Part shown: piece by piece, positions 52,257 to 64,000 of the stretch
Position numbering within the stretch: the stretch's first letter is position 1
Layout: the number at the start of each line of letters is the position of its first letter
Assembly: GCA_025928545.1 (NCBI GenBank)
Contig: JAICJH010000021.1
Location: 1-64,000 of the forward strand
DNA length: 64,000 nt
Origin: Bryobacteraceae bacterium
GTDB lineage: Bacteria > Acidobacteriota > Terriglobia > Bryobacterales > Bryobacteraceae
Reading direction: 5' to 3'
Translations under genes and position numbers: made by a program
Notes under the pieces: generated by a model
What the model was told of the DNA's origin: nothing
Databases searched by the model: none
What the model saw: the letters and a program-made list of their open reading frames with translations, nothing else

Positions 52257-52622
52257 ATGGTGTGGGAAGTCGAATTCACCGATGAGTTCGAGGAATGGTG
52301 GCACACCCTGTATGAGTCCGAGCAGGGAAAGGTCGACGCGCGTGTCGGCCTGCTGATGGAGCGCGGGCCGAATCTCGGATTTCCATTCAGCTCGCAGGTC
52401 AAGGCTTCTTGCTTTCCGGAGATGCGCGAACTTCGCGCTCAGGCTGGTGGCGATCCTTTGCGGATGCTGTACGCGTTTGATCCGCGCCGAACTGCGATTC
52501 TTTTGGTTGCCGGTGATAAGACCGGCGACGATCGATGGTACGAAAAGAACGTCCCCGTGGCGGACCGGCTATTCGAACGCCACCTGCGGACAATCGATAA
52601 GGAGAGGTCGGAACATGGCTAG
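52257..52622 (+). CDS. HigB/RelE-family toxin
   Basis: MVWEVEFTDEFEEWWHTLYESEQGKVDARVGLLMERGPNLGFPFSSQVKAS..MRELRAQAGGDPLRMLYAFDPRRTAILLVAGDKTGDDRWYEKNVPVAD. Confidence 0.88.
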   Translation: MVWEVEFTDEFEEWWHTLYESEQGKVDARVGLLMERGPNLGFPFSSQVKASCFPEMRELRAQAGGDPLRMLYAFDPRRTAILLVAGDKTGDDRWYEKNVPVADRLFERHLRTIDKERSEHG

Positions 52623-52932
52623 GAATTTCAAGGAACTGCGCAATGGGATGTCGGCTGCTGCAAAAGCGGCCAGCGTGAGCGAGCACCGCCGGTTAGTTGA
52701 AGAGATGTCGCTTCTCCAACTGCGGAAAGCCCGCGAGCTCACCCAAACCAAGATCGCCGGTGAGCTGCACATGGGTCAGGGCGATGTGTCGAAGCTGGAA
52801 CGTCGAACAGATATGTATGTCAGCACGCTCGCCAGCTACCTTCAGGCAGTAGGGGCCGATCTGGAGATTCGCGCGGTTTTCCCCGATGGGCGCGCTGTTA
52901 AAATCACGCAGTTTTCTGAAGAGTCTATTTAG
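52615..52932 (+). CDS. XRE-family antitoxin
   Basis: ELTQTKIAGELHMGQGDVSKLERRTDMYVSTLASYLQAVGADLEIRAVFPDG HTH; overlaps toxin gene by 8 bp. Confidence 0.88.
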   Translation: MARNFKELRNGMSAAAKAASVSEHRRLVEEMSLLQLRKARELTQTKIAGELHMGQGDVSKLERRTDMYVSTLASYLQAVGADLEIRAVFPDGRAVKITQFSEESI

Positions 52933-53168: not shown

Positions 53169-53257
53169 GCCCGGGTGGCGAAATCGGCAGACGCAACGGA
53201 CTTAAAATCCGTTTTTCCGCAAGGAGAGTGTGGGTTCAATTCCCACCCCGGGCACCA
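53169..53257 (+). tRNA. tRNA-Leu (UAA)
   Basis: GCCCGGG/CCCGGGC acceptor, CTTAAAA anticodon loop, long variable arm, encoded CCA. Confidence 0.95.
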
Positions 53258-53705: not shown

Positions 53706-54200
53706 ATGTCATCAATCCTCGAACTTTGTCACTGGCTCCAGCACACTGCGTTCTCGCAGTCGGTTCTGCAATCCGCGCTCGTTTTTCCCCTGATAGAGGG
53801 AACCCACATACTCGCGCTCTCGATCTCGGTTGGCCTCGTCATGGTGCTCGACCTTCGCCTTCTCGGCCTGGCTTTCCGCGGAGAACGGGTGGCGGTCATC
53901 ATGAAACAGAGCGCCGGCATCTCCTTGGTGGGCTTCGCAATTATGTTCGCGACTGGCCTCATACTCTTCATCACCCAGGCCGAGAAAGCCTACACGAATC
54001 GCTTCTTCCTGATCAAAATGGTTTTGCTGGTTCTGGCGGGAATTAACGCCGGCTGGTATCAGTACAAGTACTACCCGAATATGGAGGAGTGGGATGCGGC
54101 GCCCGTGACTCCGTTGGGCCCAAGAGTTTGTGCGGTGGTCTCCCTGATCTGCTGGCTGACGGTGATCTTCTGCGGCCGGACGATGGCGTACGAGTTTTAA
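53706..54200 (+). CDS. DUF6644-like four-helix membrane protein (paralog 1)
   Basis: GTHILALSISVGLVMVLDLRLLGLAFRG ... GLILFITQAEKAYTNRFFLIKM; four hydrophobic segments. Confidence 0.75.
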   Translation: MSSILELCHWLQHTAFSQSVLQSALVFPLIEGTHILALSISVGLVMVLDLRLLGLAFRGERVAVIMKQSAGISLVGFAIMFATGLILFITQAEKAYTNRFFLIKMVLLVLAGINAGWYQYKYYPNMEEWDAAPVTPLGPRVCAVVSLICWLTVIFCGRTMAYEF

Positions 54201-54213
54201 AAGGAGGTCGCCT

Positions 54214-54723
54214 ATGCTCCATGAAATCTTAGCGTTTATACAACACCTCCTTCACGAATTCGACGTCTGGATCTACAATTCGCCGACGCCGGGCATTATC
54301 AGGGACTCCAAATACGCGATTCCGATCATCCAGACCTTCCACCTCGCCGGCATAACGACGATACTCGGAACCACGGTAGTGACGAACCTTCGCCTGCTCA
54401 ATCTCGGGTATCGGGAGATCCCGCTGGAGGTGATCGTCTCGCAGTTGCGCCGCTGGTTTAAGATCGGTCTGATCACGACGATGTCGTCTGGTTTTATCGT
54501 TTTCGTGGTAGACCCGGTCCGCTATGTCCAGAACACTTCCTTCATCGTGAAGATGTGCCTGCTGCTGCTCGCAATCATCTATCAGTTCACAATCTTCCGG
54601 AAGATTTTGCGGGCCAATCCCGCACCCGCTTTATCCATGGGCAACCTGGTTCCATCGGCGATATCGCTGGTACTCTGGTTCGGAGTGGGCTGGGCCGGAC
54701 GCGCAATAGCCTTTTTCGGATAA
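54214..54723 (+). CDS. DUF6644-like four-helix membrane protein (paralog 2)
   Basis: TFHLAGITTILGTTVVTNLRLLNLGYRE ... GFIVFVVDPVRYVQNTSFIVKM; preceded by AAAAGGAGG. Confidence 0.75.
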   Translation: MLHEILAFIQHLLHEFDVWIYNSPTPGIIRDSKYAIPIIQTFHLAGITTILGTTVVTNLRLLNLGYREIPLEVIVSQLRRWFKIGLITTMSSGFIVFVVDPVRYVQNTSFIVKMCLLLLAIIYQFTIFRKILRANPAPALSMGNLVPSAISLVLWFGVGWAGRAIAFFG

Positions 54724-54758
54724 ACGAATCCGAAAGCGCTTCCCTGCCCGCCGAGTGA

Positions 54759-55163
54759 ATGCGAAATGATACTCCTGGTGGTGGGGACCCGTTGCTGAAA
54801 GCACTCCGCGCAGTCTGCGCAGTACACATCCTTGCCGTTTTTTCTCAAGCGGTATCTGCGGGGCAGTTTCTGTCGGGCGACCCAACTCCCGTTCGCTTTC
54901 ACGAAGTCGGAGCCTGGGTCATCCTGACCGTTGCCGCTGCACAGCTCATCCTCGTGATTATCCGCGGACGATTCTTTACCGGGATGCTGCCGTTGACGCT
55001 TTCGAGCGTCGCAATTCTGCTTTGTGAAGGACTTCAGACGGGAACCGGTTACGGCCGTTTTCCCCAAGTCCATATTCCGCTTGCTGTGCTGATTTTCGGA
55101 GGGCTGGTCTGGCAGGGATATCAATTGTTCCGGTCACCGAATCCCGGTAGACAACCGATATGA
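54759..55163 (+). CDS. Small His-containing four-helix membrane protein
   Basis: AVHILAVFSQAVSAGQFL, RFHEVGAWVILTVAAAQLILV, GYGRFPQVHIPLAVLIFGGLVWQGYQLF; ATGA overlap with the next gene. Confidence 0.7.
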   Translation: MRNDTPGGGDPLLKALRAVCAVHILAVFSQAVSAGQFLSGDPTPVRFHEVGAWVILTVAAAQLILVIIRGRFFTGMLPLTLSSVAILLCEGLQTGTGYGRFPQVHIPLAVLIFGGLVWQGYQLFRSPNPGRQPI

Positions 55164-56692
55164 AGATCAGCCGCCGGGAAGCGATGCGAATAGCCACGCT
55201 GAGCATGGCGACTGGCGCTGTGATCCCAGATCTGGCGTGCACGCAGGCCCGGCCTGAACCAAGGCTGCTGACAAGCCAAGCCAAGCTTCCCCCGCGATTC
55301 TCTGTTCCGCTTCCGGTACCGACGGTGCTGAAGCCCGTCAACGCCAGTGCCGATACCGATCATTACGAAATGAGCGTGCGCCCCGCGAGCCTCAGAATTC
55401 TTCCGGGGCTGGAAACGGAAATCTGGGGATACGAAGGTCAGTTTCCCGGCCCTACGATCGAGGGGCGCACAGGACGGCGGGTCTCACTCCGGCTTCGCAA
55501 TCAGTTGCCTGTACCCCTCGTTCATCATCTCCACGGCGGCCACACCCCGCCGGAGAGCGACGGATATCCAACAGACCTTCTTACACCCGCGGCCGGTTTT
55601 ACGAATTCGCACATGCACGATCCCCGGGCCAATACTGCGGCAATGGAGCGCGAATACGTGTATCCAAACCTGCAGCGCCCTGCAACACTTTGGTATCACG
55701 ATCACCGCATGGACTTTACCGGGGCGCAGGTTTGGCGCGGAATGGTTGGGCTTTACATCCTGCGCGACGATCGTGAGGATCGTCTGCCGCTGCCGCGCGA
55801 CGGCAGGGAAATCCCTTTAGTGATCTGCGACCGGTCCTTTGCATCCGACGGATCATTCCTTTATCCGTCTCTGGACAAAAGTCTGCGCAGCCCCGGAATC
55901 GAGAGTTCCTACATGGGAGGCGTGCTGGGCGATGCAATTATGGTCAACGGCGCGCCCTGGCCAAAACTGGAAGTTTCCAATACGTGCTATCGTTTTCGCA
56001 TTCTGAACGCGTCAAACGCGCGACGCTATGAACTTGCTCTTGAACCTGCCGCGGGCTCTGGTCACGCGTTCATTCAGATCGGCAGCGACGGCGGACTGCT
56101 GGAAGCGCCACAAAACCGGCGTACGATACGAATTGCGCCGGCGGAAAGGGTCGATCTGATTGTGGATTTTTCCCGATACGCGGTGGGTTCAACCGTAATC
56201 CTCACGAATCGCGAAGGTTCCGGTTCGGCCGCCAGTGTCATGCAGTTTCAAGTCACGCGCAGTGAGAAGGACCCATGCACTGTGCCGGCTAAACTTTCCG
56301 AACCGCCGCTTTTGGATGTCCGTGCCGCCACGGTCACGCGGGATTTCGATTTCCGCTATCAACGCAGTTCGCGTGTCTGGACGATTAACGGCAGAGAATT
56401 CGACCCGGCGCGGATCGACGCCTACCCGAAGCTCGGGTCCACGGAGATCTGGCGATTACGCTCGGACTTCAATCATCCGGTGCATCTGCACCTCGTGCAG
56501 TTCCGGGTCCTTTCTCACGGCGGACCGCCGGAGGCTTCCGATGCAGGCTGGAAGGATACCCTCGATCTGGAACCTGGAGTGGCGGCCGAGATTCTGGTGC
56601 GCTTTACCGACTACAGGGGACGCTACGTGTTCCATTGCCATAACCTGGAACATGAGGACATGATGATGATGGGAAATTTTGAGGTGGTTTGA
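55160..56692 (+). CDS. Multicopper oxidase, CotA/bilirubin-oxidase-like, with Tat-type lipoprotein-like signal
   Basis: SRREAMRIATLSMATGAVIPDLAC; copper motifs HHLHGGH, WYHDHRM, HPVHLHLVQF, YVFHCHNLEHEDMMMMG. Confidence 0.93.
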   Translation: MKISRREAMRIATLSMATGAVIPDLACTQARPEPRLLTSQAKLPPRFSVPLPVPTVLKPVNASADTDHYEMSVRPASLRILPGLETEIWGYEGQFPGPTIEGRTGRRVSLRLRNQLPVPLVHHLHGGHTPPESDGYPTDLLTPAAGFTNSHMHDPRANTAAMEREYVYPNLQRPATLWYHDHRMDFTGAQVWRGMVGLYILRDDREDRLPLPRDGREIPLVICDRSFASDGSFLYPSLDKSLRSPGIESSYMGGVLGDAIMVNGAPWPKLEVSNTCYRFRILNASNARRYELALEPAAGSGHAFIQIGSDGGLLEAPQNRRTIRIAPAERVDLIVDFSRYAVGSTVILTNREGSGSAASVMQFQVTRSEKDPCTVPAKLSEPPLLDVRAATVTRDFDFRYQRSSRVWTINGREFDPARIDAYPKLGSTEIWRLRSDFNHPVHLHLVQFRVLSHGGPPEASDAGWKDTLDLEPGVAAEILVRFTDYRGRYVFHCHNLEHEDMMMMGNFEVV

Positions 56693-56695
56693 GCG

Positions 56696-57550
56696 ATGAC
56701 CCTGCATCGATATGCTGTGATTGTTTCCATCGTGCTGGTCGTGGTGATTGGGATCGGCGGGAGCGTAACCACGCTTGCCGAATTCGCCGCCACAGCCCCC
56801 GCGCAGACCGCATCTATCCAGTCGATTCCAACGGCAGCAGTTCATGCAGCGGGTGGAGTCCTCGCCACGTTGCTCGTTCTGATTGCAGCTCTATGGGTCG
56901 CGTTCTCCAGACAGCGAAGAGCTGTCCAGATCACGGCGTGGGCGGGCGCTGCGCTGGCCGCGATCAGTAGCGCCCTCGGTATGTCGGACCAGGCATCGGC
57001 CTCGGTCACAGTCGCGATCGTCCATGCCTGCCTTGCGCCTGTGATTCTGTCGCTGATGGTGTCACTGGTGGTTCTTACCGCACCCGCCGATTCTTCATCG
57101 GAAGAGCCACTGCTGTTGCCAGGCGGCGGGAAGCTCAGGATAGCTGCCCTTGCCGGTCCACCACTCGCACTGATCCAGATCATTTTCGGCGCGCTTTATC
57201 GCCATAAAGCCATCGGCGTATTGCTCCACATGGGCGGAGCCCTGGTGGTGTCGTTGCTGACATTGATCGTCTGTGTCGCGATCATGCAACAAATCACGCA
57301 CAGCATACCTCTCAGGAATGCCGCCGTGGTCGCGATGATCGTGGTTCTGACTCAGCTTTCGCTGGGAATCGCGGCCTTTGTGATGAGGCTGCTCGATGCC
57401 GATACAGGCACGCTCTTCCTCGCCGCCACCGTGTTGCACGTGACTGTCGGTTCAATGACACTCGCATCAACCGCGCTGTTGGCGATATACGCCCGGGGCA
57501 TTCGTCCCGCAAAAGACGATCAGAAGATCGCTTTTGGCGAATCCCAATAA
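56696..57550 (+). CDS. COX15/CtaA-like (heme A synthase-like) membrane protein
   Basis: Eight hydrophobic helices; RYAVIVSIVLVVVIGIGGSVTT; VHAAGGVLATLLVLI, VAIVHACLAPVIL, GALYRHKAIGVLLHMGGALVV, TVLHVTVGSMTLA. Confidence 0.7.
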   Translation: MTLHRYAVIVSIVLVVVIGIGGSVTTLAEFAATAPAQTASIQSIPTAAVHAAGGVLATLLVLIAALWVAFSRQRRAVQITAWAGAALAAISSALGMSDQASASVTVAIVHACLAPVILSLMVSLVVLTAPADSSSEEPLLLPGGGKLRIAALAGPPLALIQIIFGALYRHKAIGVLLHMGGALVVSLLTLIVCVAIMQQITHSIPLRNAAVVAMIVVLTQLSLGIAAFVMRLLDADTGTLFLAATVLHVTVGSMTLASTALLAIYARGIRPAKDDQKIAFGESQ

Positions 57551-58026
57551 GCAATCCATCGCCCTGCGCAAATTACGGCCAGCCACAGCAACAGCGAGAG
57601 AGCAGCGGCAAGTCGCGCTTTGGATGGAATCTCTTTGGCCGCGTCGAGCGCCGCTGTGTTGCGGTAGACGGATCGAAAATACACGGAGTGTGCGATCAGC
57701 AGACAAAGCAGAAACATCTTCAGCCGGAAGAAGGTATTGGGATAGTATGCATCGGCTTTCGCTCCTGCAAGCAGAATGCCGCAGGTGACCATCAGTGTGA
57801 GTCCCGCGTGCTTCCACGGACGGAGGGTCCTGATGAGTTCGCCGGCCGGCGCGGTCGGGAAGGCCCACCCCAGCAGACGGAGATTCGTGGCAAGAATCAT
57901 GCCGCCGAATATCGCGATGCAAGTGAGATGAGTTGACAATACGATCGGGTAGAAATACTGAGACTGCCTGACGGCCGTGAACAGCCCCGTATTCCGAATT
58001 GTTTCAGCGAATTCCGCTAGCATCAT
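57520..58026 (-). CDS. DUF6644-like four-helix membrane protein (paralog 3)
   Basis: STHLTCIAIFGGMILATNLRLLGWAFPT ... GILLAGAKADAYYPNTFFRLKM; 31-bp convergent overlap with the CtaA-like gene. Confidence 0.75.
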   Translation of the reverse strand: MMLAEFAETIRNTGLFTAVRQSQYFYPIVLSTHLTCIAIFGGMILATNLRLLGWAFPTAPAGELIRTLRPWKHAGLTLMVTCGILLAGAKADAYYPNTFFRLKMFLLCLLIAHSVYFRSVYRNTAALDAAKEIPSKARLAAALSLLLWLAVICAGRWIAYWDSPKAIF

Positions 58027-58044
58027 TTTGGTCTCCCGATCTTT

Positions 58045-58485
58045 CTACGTGAAAGCGTAAAACAGCCCGCCAAAAATAACGGGCACCCACAGAAGTAATG
58101 ACATCGCCCCCGCAATTACACCGGCTCCCGCGGACCCGCGTCGCGCCACCATGCGGTGCACGGTGTAGTTGTAAATAATGGCGATCACAAGGCAAATCAA
58201 CTTCAGCCGGAACACCTCATTGCGCGAATAGCGCTCGGGATCGGTTGAGAAAAGCAGCAGACCGGATGTAATTGCCGTCGTCAATCCGCCAAGTGTCCAG
58301 AACGTAGTTGTCCTCAGCAAATCCGATGACCTCAGGTTTTTCAAACCAAGCCCCATCAGGCGGAAGTCAACCATCGCAATGGACCCGATCGCAACCGCAA
58401 ACGACGCGATGTGAATACATTCGAGCGCGCCAAAAGCCCACTCGATCTGGTTCAGCGGATTAGTCAGTGGATCGTAAACCAGCAA
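58045..58485 (-). CDS. DUF6644-like four-helix membrane protein (paralog 4)
   Basis: CIHIASFAVAIGSIAMVDFRLMGLGLKN ... GLLLFSTDPERYSRNEVFRLKL. Confidence 0.75.
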   Translation of the reverse strand: MLVYDPLTNPLNQIEWAFGALECIHIASFAVAIGSIAMVDFRLMGLGLKNLRSSDLLRTTTFWTLGGLTTAITSGLLLFSTDPERYSRNEVFRLKLICLVIAIIYNYTVHRMVARRGSAGAGVIAGAMSLLLWVPVIFGGLFYAFT

Positions 58486-58494
58486 AGTATTCTC

Positions 58495-61400
58495 CTAGAA
58501 AATGAATTTCACTGCAACCTGCACCAGCCGGGGCGCGCCCGCTTTAACGATTTGTCCGAACAGCGCCGTGTCTATGTTCCCATTGACCGCCGAGGGCCCA
58601 AAAAACTGGGCGTGATTGAACGTGTTGAATGTTTCGAAGCGAAACTGCAGCGCTTGCGATTCGGACATATTAAAAGTCCGCAGCAAAGCCAGATCGAAGT
58701 TCAGCGCACCCGGCCCATGGAATGAACGCCGGGACGCGTTGCCCGCAGTACCCAGCGCATTTTCGCTGAAGGCCCCCGTGTTGAAGTATTTGAGACCATT
58801 TCGCGGGTTGTGGTTTAGCGCGAGTGCCGCGCCATTGTAGTCCGGCAGGTCGAGACTATAGTTGTTGACGCCGTTCGGAATACTGCCCATCAGCGAATTG
58901 TCACCGGTGCTGCGCAGCGTCACCGGGAAGCCGGAACTGGCCCGCGCGATTCCCGAAACTCCCCAACCACCCAATAACGTTCTTGCAAACTTGGTTTTCC
59001 CCGTCGGGAGGAAACGAAACTCGAAGGTCGTCACCAGATCATGCTTGAGATCGAAAGAAGACAACGAGCGCGTGGCCCGAAAGTTGAACGGATTAATGGG
59101 ATCGGACAGACTCGATGCCTGATCGATGGATTTACTGAACGTATAACTGGCCGCAACGTCCAGACGTTTGCTGGAGTGCTTAATATTCGCCTGAAGAGAA
59201 TTATAGTTCGAGTTACCGATGCTCGCGTTGTAGTCGTCGTTGCTGAAGGCGTCGCCAAGGCCGCTCCGGGTCCCGTTGATGGTCTTGCCCGCGGGAGTTA
59301 GGTAAGTCTGATCCTCAGCGAACGGTCCGCAAGTGGCAGTACCGGGTGAAACCGCGGACTCGCGACTCAGTGACAGGCAAAGCCCCGGATTACCCGGATT
59401 GGCGGAATAAACGACCAGAAGGTGATGAGCCTGTGAGCCGGCATAGCCAACGCTCGCCAACAGATTTGTTCCGAACTGACGCTCAACAGAGAGAAAATAG
59501 CTCTCATTGTAGGGGTAGGTGTTGGTAGGCGGCGGCGCCGTCATTCCCGCGATCGGTTCAAATGCCGGGAAGTCAATACCCCCGACAGGCTTCGCCGGTG
59601 AGACACCGAAAGGTGGAAAAACCAGAGGGAAAGGGTTGCCTGAGAATGCGCCGTCAGCAGCAGATCGGAACGGCTGATCGAAAAGAGGAGGACCAGGGCT
59701 CGTATAGCTCAACCCGTATGGTGGTTGAGGCTCATCGAATGCAAGGGTGTTGCCCTGGATGACCGAATAGAACATTCCATAACCCGCGCGAACGCTCATT
59801 TTACCCGGGCCACCAGTAATTCTGCCAATCAGTCCATCAGACGCGTCGGGTGACCACGCCATACCCAGTCTGGGAGCAAACCGATTCCGAGTGGGAACTA
59901 AGGTATCGGGAACTCCGGCATCGCCGGCATAGACAAGCCCTGCTGGTGCGTCGGTGAATACTTTCGATTGCTCGCCCGGAATAAAGGTAGGAACCTGGTT
60001 GTACTTCTCTGACCAATACTCCATCAAATCCCAGCGCAAGCCATAGTTCAGGACCAGGTTGGATTTCACCCTCCAGCTGTCCTGCGCGAAGCCCCCCACG
60101 TAGCGGTGGCGGGGATAATACGACTGCGAATCAGCCTGGTTGTAGTTGCTTGCCACACCGATCAAGAAGTCCGCAAAATCCGAACCGGTTTCGGAACCGG
60201 AAAACAGAAACGAGCCGTTAAAAGTCGGGTTTGGATTTACGTTGACCTTTTCGATACTTGCCTGAATTCCTCCCTTGAACGTGTGCCGTCCAAACGCGCG
60301 CGAAATATTCTCACTCGCCGAGTATGTATTGTTGGCCTGCTTCAGATTCGTGATAGGGGTGCCCATTACGAAGGAATTGAAGACGACGTTCTCGATGCCT
60401 TCAATGGACGGCGCCAGAGGAACGATGCCGGCCGTTCCCACCCCGGTCAGAAATCCCTGAGACGCAAGGCTGGTACCTACGCCTCCCGATGGCTCCCCGA
60501 CATCGTTCGATGAACGCATGAAACTCAGCCGCAGCTCATTAACGAAGTTGGCGCCGAACTGCCTTGTGGCGCCCAGATTCACCAGTTGTGCCCGTCCGAT
60601 GTTGAGGCCGTTAAACCCTGGAACTGAAGCGCCTCCCTGCCCGGTCGGATAAGGGTTATCAACGTAATAGTCATCGAAAAAGTAGTAGGCGGAGAGTGCG
60701 CCCCATAGGCTGCTGTTGCCATCCAGGCGAAAGCTCGCTTTATCGTCGCGCAGCTTCTGTCCATGCTCACCACTGGAGAAAGTTGTGGCGCCGGCGTTGG
60801 GCGCGGGTATGTATGGCAGCAGATACCGCGAGGGCGCGGACCAGGCCCGCAGCGGGATTATTCCGCCAGGAAAAACACATTGCGAGCTTGCGACGCAACT
60901 GCCCGAATAGTAAGGCTCGCCCGAAGTGACCTTGTAGCCCAGTCTTTGAGAAAGCAAGTCCGCGAGATATGGGCCCGCCACTGAGCCCGTCAATGAATCC
61001 GCTACGTCGGCGAGATTACCCGTCCGGTCCGTAGCTGACGGCACGGAAATCAGCCCCGTGTCGATTCCCTGGTTTGTCCTTGTCCCCTGATAATCCGCAA
61101 AGAAAAACGTCTTGTTCCTGCGGATGGCCCCGCCCGCGGTACCGCCAAATTGATTCTGCCGGTAAAAGCTCCGCTCGGGTGAAAAAAAGTTGCGTGCGTC
61201 CAGGTCGGTGTTGCGCAGGAACTCGAAGCCTGATCCATGCATCTGGTTGCTCCCGGACTTGGTGATAACATTCACCACGCCACCGCTCGAGTTCCCGTAT
61301 TCGGCGTCAAAGTTATTCGTGAGGACACGGAATTCGGCAATCGAATCGAGATTCGGAACGATTGCGGTGCCGCCGTTCATCAATTCCTTGACGTCGCCGC

Positions 61401-62040
61401 CATTGACAACGAAGCCATTGGCATCCTCACGCTGACCGTTAATGGATTGATTGCCGGGATTCAAACCACCGGAAGGTGCGATCGCAACTGTCGCGCCCGC
61501 CATCACAATGGAATCCGCCGTTTGAGTGGATGTTGGAATAATTCCCGCCTGCAACGCAAGCAGATCCGTAAAGCTTCGCCCGTTCAACGCCACAGCCGTC
61601 ATCGCGTGAGACGTCACGATCTCACCGGTCTGCGTGGTGGAGGTATCCACCTGAAGCGGGTTCTCGACAACGGTGATCGTGTCCATCTTTTCGCTCATCT
61701 GCAGCGTGATATCGAGCCTGACCACACCGTCGGCATCCACAACAATTCCGGATCGTTTTTGCAGGCTGAAACCAGCGGCTTCCACCTGTACCGTATAGCT
61801 CCCGACCGACAGGCCGGAGAATGTATAGTTCCCGCTGCTGTCGGATTCGGTGGCCGACGAGACTCCCTGGGCCGGTATCGAGGCGATAACGCGCGCGTGG
61901 GGCAGCACTGCGCCGCTGGGATCCTTTACCACTCCGGATATACTCCCGGTGACGGCGGCGGGACTTGCCGTACACAAACAAAAAAAGAGGAGTATGGGCG
62001 CAAGTCTCCTCAGGAGCCGCAATGCGGCTGAAATTTTCAT
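58495..62040 (-). CDS. Oar-like TonB-dependent receptor with carboxypeptidase-regulatory-like domain
   Basis: GSISGVVKDPSGAVLPHARVIAS...GNYTFSGLSVGSYTVQVEAAGF; plug ...INGQREDANGFVVNGGDVKE; YGNSSGGVVNVITKSGSNQMHGS. Confidence 0.92.
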   Translation of the reverse strand: MKISAALRLLRRLAPILLFFCLCTASPAAVTGSISGVVKDPSGAVLPHARVIASIPAQGVSSATESDSSGNYTFSGLSVGSYTVQVEAAGFSLQKRSGIVVDADGVVRLDITLQMSEKMDTITVVENPLQVDTSTTQTGEIVTSHAMTAVALNGRSFTDLLALQAGIIPTSTQTADSIVMAGATVAIAPSGGLNPGNQSINGQREDANGFVVNGGDVKELMNGGTAIVPNLDSIAEFRVLTNNFDAEYGNSSGGVVNVITKSGSNQMHGSGFEFLRNTDLDARNFFSPERSFYRQNQFGGTAGGAIRRNKTFFFADYQGTRTNQGIDTGLISVPSATDRTGNLADVADSLTGSVAGPYLADLLSQRLGYKVTSGEPYYSGSCVASSQCVFPGGIIPLRAWSAPSRYLLPYIPAPNAGATTFSSGEHGQKLRDDKASFRLDGNSSLWGALSAYYFFDDYYVDNPYPTGQGGASVPGFNGLNIGRAQLVNLGATRQFGANFVNELRLSFMRSSNDVGEPSGGVGTSLASQGFLTGVGTAGIVPLAPSIEGIENVVFNSFVMGTPITNLKQANNTYSASENISRAFGRHTFKGGIQASIEKVNVNPNPTFNGSFLFSGSETGSDFADFLIGVASNYNQADSQSYYPRHRYVGGFAQDSWRVKSNLVLNYGLRWDLMEYWSEKYNQVPTFIPGEQSKVFTDAPAGLVYAGDAGVPDTLVPTRNRFAPRLGMAWSPDASDGLIGRITGGPGKMSVRAGYGMFYSVIQGNTLAFDEPQPPYGLSYTSPGPPLFDQPFRSAADGAFSGNPFPLVFPPFGVSPAKPVGGIDFPAFEPIAGMTAPPPTNTYPYNESYFLSVERQFGTNLLASVGYAGSQAHHLLVVYSANPGNPGLCLSLSRESAVSPGTATCGPFAEDQTYLTPAGKTINGTRSGLGDAFSNDDYNASIGNSNYNSLQANIKHSSKRLDVAASYTFSKSIDQASSLSDPINPFNFRATRSLSSFDLKHDLVTTFEFRFLPTGKTKFARTLLGGWGVSGIARASSGFPVTLRSTGDNSLMGSIPNGVNNYSLDLPDYNGAALALNHNPRNGLKYFNTGAFSENALGTAGNASRRSFHGPGALNFDLALLRTFNMSESQALQFRFETFNTFNHAQFFGPSAVNGNIDTALFGQIVKAGAPRLVQVAVKFIF

Positions 62041-62102
62041 AAGAACACAGATTTCGGGCGGTCTTTTAGGCTGGCGGGACTAAGAAGCCTTCCAGAAAGT
62101 AG

Positions 62103-62132
62103 CTCCGATGCCCTCACGAGAGAGCATCGGAG
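62103..62132. repeat. Stem-loop between receptor and DUF6152-like gene
   Basis: CTCCGATGC ... GCATCGGAG perfect 9-bp inverted repeat; no strong T-run. Confidence 0.55.
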
Positions 62133-62156
62133 TGAAAGTTGAATCGGAATCGAAGT

Positions 62157-62597
62157 TTAGTTGCTGCCCGTCTGGTGGCCGGGGTCCTTGCCATCCGCAG
62201 CGGGCCGGGCGATGTCGTGATACATGCGGGTGCCGTCGGGTTTAGTCACGTAGAAAAGCGAAATTCCCTTGGAGCCATCTCGCATCGGGTGACCTGTCAC
62301 GCTGATCGAGTCACCGGGTTTGTAGGACGCCCGATTCCAGCCCTGACGTGCCATGATGTTCACGGCGCCGCCCTCCACATCCCAGACGCCAACGGTGGAG
62401 GGATCGACCCCAGCCTTGTCGGCAACCTTAATGATGATGTGGGTGTGTGGATTTTCCCAATTGTATTCCTGAACCGTACCGACGTATGTCACGTTTTTGG
62501 ACATTTCGAACATCGCGAAGGAGTGATGGGCAAATGCCGGGACGCCAAGAGCTAACGCCCCCATAACGGCGACCATGGCAATCGTCTTTGCTTTCAT
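62157..62597 (-). CDS. DUF6152-like secreted protein
   Basis: MKAKTIAMVAVMGALALGVPAFA|HHSFAMFEMSKNVTYVGTVQEYNWENPHTHIIIKVADK; AxA-type cleavage leaves HHSF. Confidence 0.85.
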   Translation of the reverse strand: MKAKTIAMVAVMGALALGVPAFAHHSFAMFEMSKNVTYVGTVQEYNWENPHTHIIIKVADKAGVDPSTVGVWDVEGGAVNIMARQGWNRASYKPGDSISVTGHPMRDGSKGISLFYVTKPDGTRMYHDIARPAADGKDPGHQTGSN

Positions 62598-63038: not shown

Positions 63039-64000
63039 ATGACTTTGTTGTCGCGATGCGCGTCACGTAATGTGGGAATCGGAATACTGGCGCTAACCGC
63101 CCTGATGGCCACGTTCGCCTCATTGGCGTCCGCCCAAAACGTCAGCAGTTCGCTGGAGGGAACAGTCTTTGACCCAGCGGACGCCGCTGTGCCAAGAGCC
63201 AAACTGACCCTCAAAGACGAAGGTAGCGGAAATGTCCGCCAGGCTACGGCGGATGATACGGGCTTCTTCCGGTTTCTGGCCTTGCCGGCAGGTACGTACT
63301 CGCTCAATGCCTCGGCCGCCGGGTTCAAGGGACAGACAGTCAACGGCATTACGCTCGTCCTGGCGGAAATGCGCTACACGAAAATCAATCTCACGGTCGG
63401 GAATGTGTCGGATTCAGTGTCAGTGACGGCGGATGCCACGCCGGTCCAAACCTCCTCCAGCGAAAAAGCGGCATTGATCGATTCCAATCAGTTGAGCACC
63501 GTCACCCTGAAAGGCCGGGATGTGTTTGGTTTTATGAATCTTCTGCCCGGCGTCGTCGATACGGCAACCCGCGATGTCACCTCACCCAACGGCTTGAGCA
63601 ATATCACAATCAATGGCAATACGACTTCCAAGAACTTCTCGGTTGACGGCGTCAGCAACATGGATACCTCCGGAGACGCGACCGTTCACTACGAACCCAA
63701 TATGGACGCGATTCAGGAGGTTAAGGTACTTGGCTCCAACTTTCAAGCCGAGTTCGGGCGGAATTCTGGTGGCTCAATCGCCGTAGTCACAAAGAGCGGC
63801 ACTCAGAAATTTCACGGCAGCGGCTGGTGGAATCACCGCCATGAAGGCTTTAACGCCAATGACTTTTTCAGAAACCAAAACGGGCAGGCCCGGTTGCCCT
63901 ATCGCTATAACGTGGACGGCTGGAGCCTCGGTGGCCCAGGCTACATCCCGCATCTGCTTAATACCAGCAAGACCAAGTTCTTCTTTTTTGCATCCCAGGA
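63039..64000 (+). CDS. TonB-dependent receptor, N-terminal part (runs off window end)
   Basis: ATG at 63039; MTLLSRCASRNVGIGILALTALMATFASLASAQNVSSSLEGTVFDPADAAVPRAKLTLKDEGSGNVRQATADDTGFFRFLALPAGTYSL...FGRNSGGSIAVVTKSGTQKFHGSGWW; open to the end. Confidence 0.92.
   Translation, partial: MTLLSRCASRNVGIGILALTALMATFASLASAQNVSSSLEGTVFDPADAAVPRAKLTLKDEGSGNVRQATADDTGFFRFLALPAGTYSLNASAAGFKGQTVNGITLVLAEMRYTKINLTVGNVSDSVSVTADATPVQTSSSEKAALIDSNQLSTVTLKGRDVFGFMNLLPGVVDTATRDVTSPNGLSNITINGNTTSKNFSVDGVSNMDTSGDATVHYEPNMDAIQEVKVLGSNFQAEFGRNSGGSIAVVTKSGTQKFHGSGWWNHRHEGFNANDFFRNQNGQARLPYRYNVDGWSLGGPGYIPHLLNTSKTKFFFFASQ

Follow-up and report, generated by a model that had tools for sequence, protein, structure and literature searches.

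We analysed a 64,000-nucleotide stretch of a Bryobacteraceae genome (the window), in which nine genes form two converging runs. The plus-strand run encodes two DUF6644 membrane proteins, a small membrane protein termed M3, a multicopper oxidase and a CtaA-like protein. The minus-strand run encodes a secreted DUF6152 protein, an outer-membrane receptor and two further DUF6644 proteins. All nine open reading frames of the original prediction are present, with the positions and strands that it gave (Table 1). Its family assignments stand for the four DUF6644 proteins, the DUF6152 protein and the oxidase, which exceed their Pfam cut-offs (27 bits for DUF6644 and for DUF6152). Conversely, the CtaA-like protein scores 12.8 bits against COX15-CtaA, below the cut-off of 29.9 bits. 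The label 'TonB receptor' was too specific. The protein matches only OMP_b-brl_4 and CarboxypepD_reg, which amounts to membership of a barrel family; the NCBIfam receptor models scored far below cut-off and the curated TonB-receptor models all failed.

Table 1. Genes of the two converging runs, in window coordinates. TM, transmembrane.
Feature	Coordinates	Strand	Basis
DUF6644 subtype A, lineage I (D1), 4-TM membrane protein	53706..54200	+	PF20349 42 bits; clade A in tree
DUF6644 subtype B, lineage I (D2)	54214..54723	+	PF20349 66 bits; AlphaFold2 model; conserved columns His43, Gly93, Lys113
M3, small His-containing membrane protein, 134 aa	54759..55163	+	no Pfam family; homologues beside oxidase in genomes G387 and G325
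CotA/bilirubin-oxidase-type multicopper oxidase, N-terminal twin-Arg-like signal	55160..56692	+	Pfam Cu-oxidase domains; Cu-ligand motifs
CtaA-like protein, 284 aa, four heme-His kept, E-x-x-H-R absent	56696..57550	+	alignment of 32
DUF6644 subtype A, lineage II (D4)	57520..58026	-	PF20349 53 bits; lineage II tree position
DUF6644 subtype B, lineage II (D3), TTG start	58045..58485	-	PF20349 33 bits
Outer-membrane beta-barrel receptor (OMP_b-brl_4 + CarboxypepD_reg)	58495..62040	-	Pfam 585 bits
DUF6152 secreted protein, predicted mature N-terminus HHSF..., predicted OB-fold	62157..62597	-	PF19649 105 bits

Inside both runs, neighbouring genes overlap by as much as 4 bp or lie up to about 35 bp apart; the exception is the 116 bp between the DUF6152 and receptor genes. 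The 3' ends of the runs overlap by 31 bp. D3 has a short N-terminus, as does its orthologue in G387. No other DUF6644 genes exist in this 6.7 Mb genome. Since all of them lie here, and the arrangement recurs in other genera, the cluster is more than a product of chance.

Conservation of the neighbourhood

Absence of the neighbourhood from relatives had been named as grounds for discarding the original prediction. Instead, sub-blocks recur in genomes G387, G325, G368 and G329. Block 1, where the M3, oxidase and CtaA-like genes converge on a DUF6644 pair, is also found in G387 and G325, which belong to other genera of the same family; their oxidases are 65% and 61% identical to that of the window, respectively. 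Block 2, comprising receptor, DUF6152 and DUF6644, recurs in G368 and G329 and, less tightly, in G387. Its layout is DUF6152, receptor and four DUF6644 genes in G368, and six DUF6644 genes, DUF6152 and receptor in G329. Receptors in the DUF6644/DUF6152 loci of G387, G368 and G329 share 62-67% identity with the window receptor. The convergent CtaA-like/DUF6644 arrangement occurs in five genomes. For instance, four DUF6644 genes of G368 converge on a CtaA-like gene, which is followed by genes for CtaG and cytochrome oxidase subunit III. M3 homologues were detected in 5 of 101 genomes sampled from the family of the window, and the complete nine-gene order was found in the window only. We conclude that the neighbourhood is a conserved unit, conserved in blocks.

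DUF6644 and DUF6152 also occur together on a larger scale. In an evenly drawn sample of 297 Acidobacteriota genomes, both exceed cut-off in the identical 39, spread over nine families (Fisher 1e-49, uncorrected for kinship). Within the family sample, both were found in 22 genomes and neither in 75, with 2 + 2 discordant cases (Fisher 8e-18, likewise uncorrected for kinship). Most genomes of family f2 have neither, and a scattered few carry both (e.g. G202 in genus g5 and G171 in g3). Hence, the co-occurrence does not trace to one ancestral event. We then considered 57 DUF6644-seeded loci, a set that takes in several genomes of one genus. DUF6152 lies no more than 5 kb away in 40 of these, at a median of 0.9 kb. 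Within the same distance, a cytochrome c' is encoded at 26 loci and proteins with the motif WEGDTL at 34.

These neighbours define a commoner module: a DUF6644 pair of subtypes A and B, a cytochrome c'-like lipoprotein, two secreted WEGDTL proteins and DUF6152. The lipoprotein matches cytochrome c' in the PDB at 2e-6, and its CxxCH motif is invariant in 18 sequences. We call the secreted proteins NGIW and LQGIW, from motifs that they contain. By hhalign the two are homologous (100%), and both have 'WEGDTLVV'. WEGDTL proteins have no Pfam family (24 of 24 members) and no relative in the PDB. With seven candidates scored per genome, LQGIW-type proteins were present in 36 of the 39 DUF6644/DUF6152 genomes and in one other. 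The contig scan for DUF6152 used eight sequences. Contigs that bear the commoner arrangement carry the labels Acidobacteria, Gemmatimonadetes and Gammaproteobacteria. Among their sources are the cultured Steroidobacter agaridevorans and Peristeroidobacter, which have an NGIW protein, DUF6152 and a DUF6644 pair; in one Myxococcales contig, LQGIW lies near a single DUF6644. The laccase/CtaA part of the window is a lineage-specific add-on to this core.

DUF6152 reaches high copy number, with at least 43 genes each in G187, G329 and G368. A WEGDTL-family protein is encoded within three genes of DUF6152 in 18 of 20 dispersed loci sampled in G187 and G368. The second DUF6152 gene of the window genome (G000 contig 16, 6601-6972, L222) is between a receptor gene and that for a secreted WEGDTL-type protein without a Pfam family. 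The LQGIW family itself is very large, unannotated and secreted: at first look, single genomes (G028 and others) gave as many as about 200 candidates, of which seven were scored per genome.

DUF6644 pairs and the DUF6152 N-terminus

A same-strand DUF6644 partner lies within 900 bp of 166 of the 171 copies in the collected loci. The DUF6644 tree separates clade A (84 sequences, including D1 and D4) from clade B (77, including D2 and D3), with 10 sequences outside both. Lineage I pairs have the order A-B in 62 cases, alongside 11 other combinations. Lineage II pairs, which include those at receptor, CtaA-like and laccase loci, are ordered B-A in 10 of 10. The window carries one pair of each lineage. 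Because pairing is near-universal and pairs draw on both clades, there is strong sequence evidence that DUF6644 A and B are an obligate heteromer, and we infer that the two form a physical complex.

His43, Gly93 and Lys113 are invariant in 68 DUF6644 sequences. An AlphaFold2 model of D2 (pLDDT 94.7) has four long TM helices, and positive-loop charges place His43 near the periplasmic side. In hhalign, DUF6644 aligned with UPF0093/HemJ (PF03653) over 115 columns (probability 88.5, P 2.7e-6) with His43 and Lys113 matched. Controls using the CtaA-like and M3 families each gave less than 1%. DUF6644 and HemJ share four TM helices, an invariant histidine in TM1 and a lysine before TM3. They differ in that DUF6644 is nearly always an A/B gene pair, is found beside periplasmic redox genes and has no UPF0093 Pfam match, even at E 10. 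HemJ was reportedly described by Skotnicova et al. in 2018 as a b-type heme protein. DUF6644 may likewise hold heme. An assignment of DUF6644 to CopD was also tried and rejected: there was no Pfam CopD match, and hhalign gave 0.4% against a single CopD sequence, which is a weak test.

For DUF6152, we aligned 78 sequences, 77 of which reach the end of the predicted signal peptide. Position -1 is alanine in 76 of the 77, and His-His follows in all of them (A23-H24-H25 in the window protein); residue -3 is small or aliphatic. Pro50-His51 and Trp72 are invariant in 78 of 78. The AlphaFold2 model (pLDDT 82) is a five-strand barrel. Hence, the Ig-like beta-sandwich of CopC and His-brace proteins is not what is predicted, and an OB-type barrel is. 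Foldseek matched the model to OB-folds at E 1e-3 to 1e-2, including CcmE (8ce8 chain E, probability 0.99, E 4.5e-3). This shows fold only, because many unrelated OB-folds rank as high or higher. Signal-peptide cleavage is thus predicted to leave DUF6152 as an OB-fold protein that starts with the invariant His-His, where it may bind a metal, possibly copper or nickel.

N-terminal histidine is a known natural metal chelator, and DUF4198, DUF6702, Ang-1 and Ang-2 were recently shown to bind metal (PMC12537917). Like these proteins, DUF6152 would expose histidine upon signal-peptide cleavage and has receptors or permeases encoded nearby. Unlike them, it is a separate Pfam family with His-His and another predicted fold. 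By analogy, the known kind of system that the module may resemble is a periplasmic N-terminal-His protein with a membrane partner. CopC/CopD and YcnI/YcnJ are of this kind, each a secreted N-terminal-His protein with a multi-TM partner. The present loci differ in their predicted OB-fold, in lacking CopC/CopD Pfam hits and in their cytochrome c' and WEGDTL partners. Our literature search found no paper naming either DUF6644 or DUF6152.

HupE/UreJ_2 permease genes, of the permease type carrying anglerases, lie near DUF6644 loci (L200 3328-4011 and L037 7962-8684). PepSY_TM proteins adjoin DUF6644/DUF6152 loci (L063 423-1952 and L188 2499-3974).

The laccase add-on and the role of the module

The window oxidase has three Pfam Cu-oxidase domains and matches CotA in the PDB at 4e-91. 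The copper-ligand motifs HLHGG, YHDH, HPVHLHL and HCHNLEHEDM are intact in this protein and its relatives. By sequence, it is a CotA/bilirubin-oxidase-like multicopper oxidase, with similarity to these enzymes over its full length. However, CotA is a spore coat protein, whereas the window oxidase is of exported type and encoded beside heme membrane proteins. In G289, a DUF6644 pair is accompanied by a multicopper oxidase of a different type that ends in a CusF domain (L068 12212-13906), together with an outer-membrane efflux protein (OEP) and a cytochrome c.

The CtaA-like protein can be aligned with CtaA-type proteins from throughout the bacterial family. As in CtaA/COX15, it has four heme-ligand histidines (H50, H110, H178 and H248), which are invariant in 32 of 32 aligned sequences. 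It differs in having lost the catalytic E-x-x-H-R motif, which is replaced by A47-x-x-H50-A51 (Glu to Ala47, Arg to Ala51). The glutamate of this motif (E57-x-x-H-R) is reported to be strictly conserved in heme A synthases (PMC12808453). The G387 protein also lacks both the glutamate and the arginine, and the G325 protein retains both. A second CtaA-type gene is present on contig 88 of the window genome. Because the heme histidines are kept, the catalytic motif is lost and another CtaA-type gene exists elsewhere, the CtaA-like protein is now probably a membrane heme carrier, and not a heme A synthase. M3 has no Pfam hit; three histidines are conserved in its three sequences (window, G387 and G325). 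The possibility that M3 is half of a CtaA was not adopted: hhalign gave 36%, for the last helix only, which is suggestive.

Conservation of the module, the pairing of DUF6644 A with B, the strict co-occurrence of DUF6644 with DUF6152 and the conserved candidate metal and heme ligands were all computed directly. The module is secure; its mechanism is what we infer. The original prediction had proposed a redox role and was partly right: the redox character is supported by the laccase motifs, the intact heme histidines of the CtaA-like protein, the cytochrome c' of the commoner version and the HemJ-like DUF6644. It had overlooked the wider core unit, the A/B pairing of DUF6644, the predicted His-His start of DUF6152 and the lost catalytic motif of the CtaA-like protein. 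Our preferred interpretation, held tentatively and at less than even confidence, is that the window holds a version, coupled to a laccase, of an envelope redox module that is widespread and undescribed, in which the DUF6644 pair exchanges electrons, or else metal, with periplasmic partners. Briefly, each A/B pair would form a heterodimer with eight TM helices, holding a b-type heme near the periplasmic face via the invariant histidine of each subunit. The pair would move electrons between the membrane (quinone) pool and the periplasm. Its general partner would be DUF6152, an OB-fold protein with a copper or nickel ion on the N-terminal His-His and the third invariant histidine. In the commoner version, the cytochrome c'-like lipoprotein would be a further carrier and the secreted WEGDTL proteins client enzymes or binders. 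In the lineage of the window, the CotA-like laccase would be the redox partner, and the CtaA-like protein and M3 would add further heme carriers in the membrane. The receptor may take up a substrate or a metal chelate.

Several points weigh against this interpretation. Laccases such as CotA draw electrons from substrates and require no membrane donor. The DUF6644-HemJ alignment is remote, HemJ itself is poorly characterised, and a fold search of the PDB gave no DUF6644 match at E <= 0.001, leaving no solved fold relative. There is one invariant histidine per DUF6644 subunit, so bis-His heme would need dimerisation. Heme and metal binding by the proteins of the module are both computational predictions. 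Furthermore, in expanded genomes most DUF6152 copies have no DUF6644 nearby.

A strong competitor, though on balance unlikely, is metal handling in the manner of CopC/CopD or YcnI/YcnJ. Here DUF6152 would capture copper (or nickel) by its N-terminal histidines and hand it to DUF6644 A/B for import or delivery. The laccase would serve either as a client cuproenzyme or as a cuprous oxidase, with the receptor importing a metal chelate. The invariant A-HH after the signal peptide and invariant His51 fit this well. So does the precedent of DUF4198, DUF6702 and the anglerases, which bind metal ions such as nickel and are in some cases joined to permeases (PMC12537917). HupE/UreJ_2 genes near DUF6644 loci in G329 and G152, and the CusF-domain oxidase and efflux OEP at the G289 locus, point the same way. 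However, the DUF6644 profile fails to align with the one CopD sequence (again, a weak test), a copper importer would hardly be expected to have cytochrome c' and WEGDTL partners, and at least 43 DUF6152 copies per genome exceed the need for an ordinary copper chaperone. Heme or porphyrin trafficking appears improbable. DUF6644 would then be a HemJ-like porphyrin or heme protein and DUF6152 a CcmE-like OB-fold heme chaperone, as the HemJ profile match, the presence of CcmE among the Foldseek matches and the CtaA-like and cytochrome c' neighbours would suggest. Yet unrelated OB-folds rank as high as CcmE or higher, none of the genes next to the loci was recognised as a ccm gene, and the WEGDTL partners are left unexplained.

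We consider it just as improbable that DUF6644 and DUF6152 form a helper module without a redox centre, aiding secretion, folding or sensing for WEGDTL proteins and receptors. The adjacency of WEGDTL proteins to DUF6152 in dispersed loci, and the large paralogue families that both form, are consistent with such a role. Metal or heme chemistry is instead indicated by the three invariant histidines, of which two would form the mature N-terminus, and by the partners: cytochrome c', the laccase and the CtaA-like protein. Finally, the nine genes could be unrelated small operons juxtaposed by chance, given that their whole order is seen in the window only. Recurrence of the sub-blocks in several genera and identical phylogenetic profiles already contradict this, and we regard it as extremely improbable.

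The redox interpretation can be extended to a new kind of envelope redox system using the copy numbers of DUF6152, which suggest few hubs and many spokes. A few DUF6644 A/B membrane hubs, with cytochrome c', may serve many secreted DUF6152-WEGDTL pairs. DUF6152 would be a metal cofactor protein of a new type, with an N-terminal histidine and an OB-fold, that activates secreted enzymes of a very large, unannotated class or supplies them with electrons. In the window, the enzyme plugged into this hub would be a laccase. We hold this extension to be speculative and rather doubtful. Because some genomes have dozens of copies, the module may carry a large part of Acidobacteriota extracellular chemistry. 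Across genomes, the unit has more parts and a wider distribution than the window alone suggests. These soil-bacterial families of no known function number four or more (DUF6644, DUF6152 and the two WEGDTL-type proteins), and they can now be tested as a single system whose candidate ligands are named. If DUF6152 does bind metal through a mature His-His end on an OB-fold, it would join the few N-terminal-His metalloproteins on record.

Genes flanking the locus

A genomic island at the tRNA-Leu gene (53169-53257) was considered and rejected. No repeat of the tRNA end of at least 14 bp was found within 79 kb, and GC content is only slightly lower (0.567 vs 0.581). Just before the tRNA gene, on the plus strand (52257-52932), Gp49-like (DUF891) and HTH_37 genes likely form a HigB/HigA-type toxin-antitoxin pair. 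Beyond DUF6152 and divergent from it is a second OMP_b-brl_4 receptor gene (63072-64000, plus strand, and L074 3073-6582); after it come two genes for AP_endonuc_2 (xylose isomerase-like) proteins and one for DUF3500.

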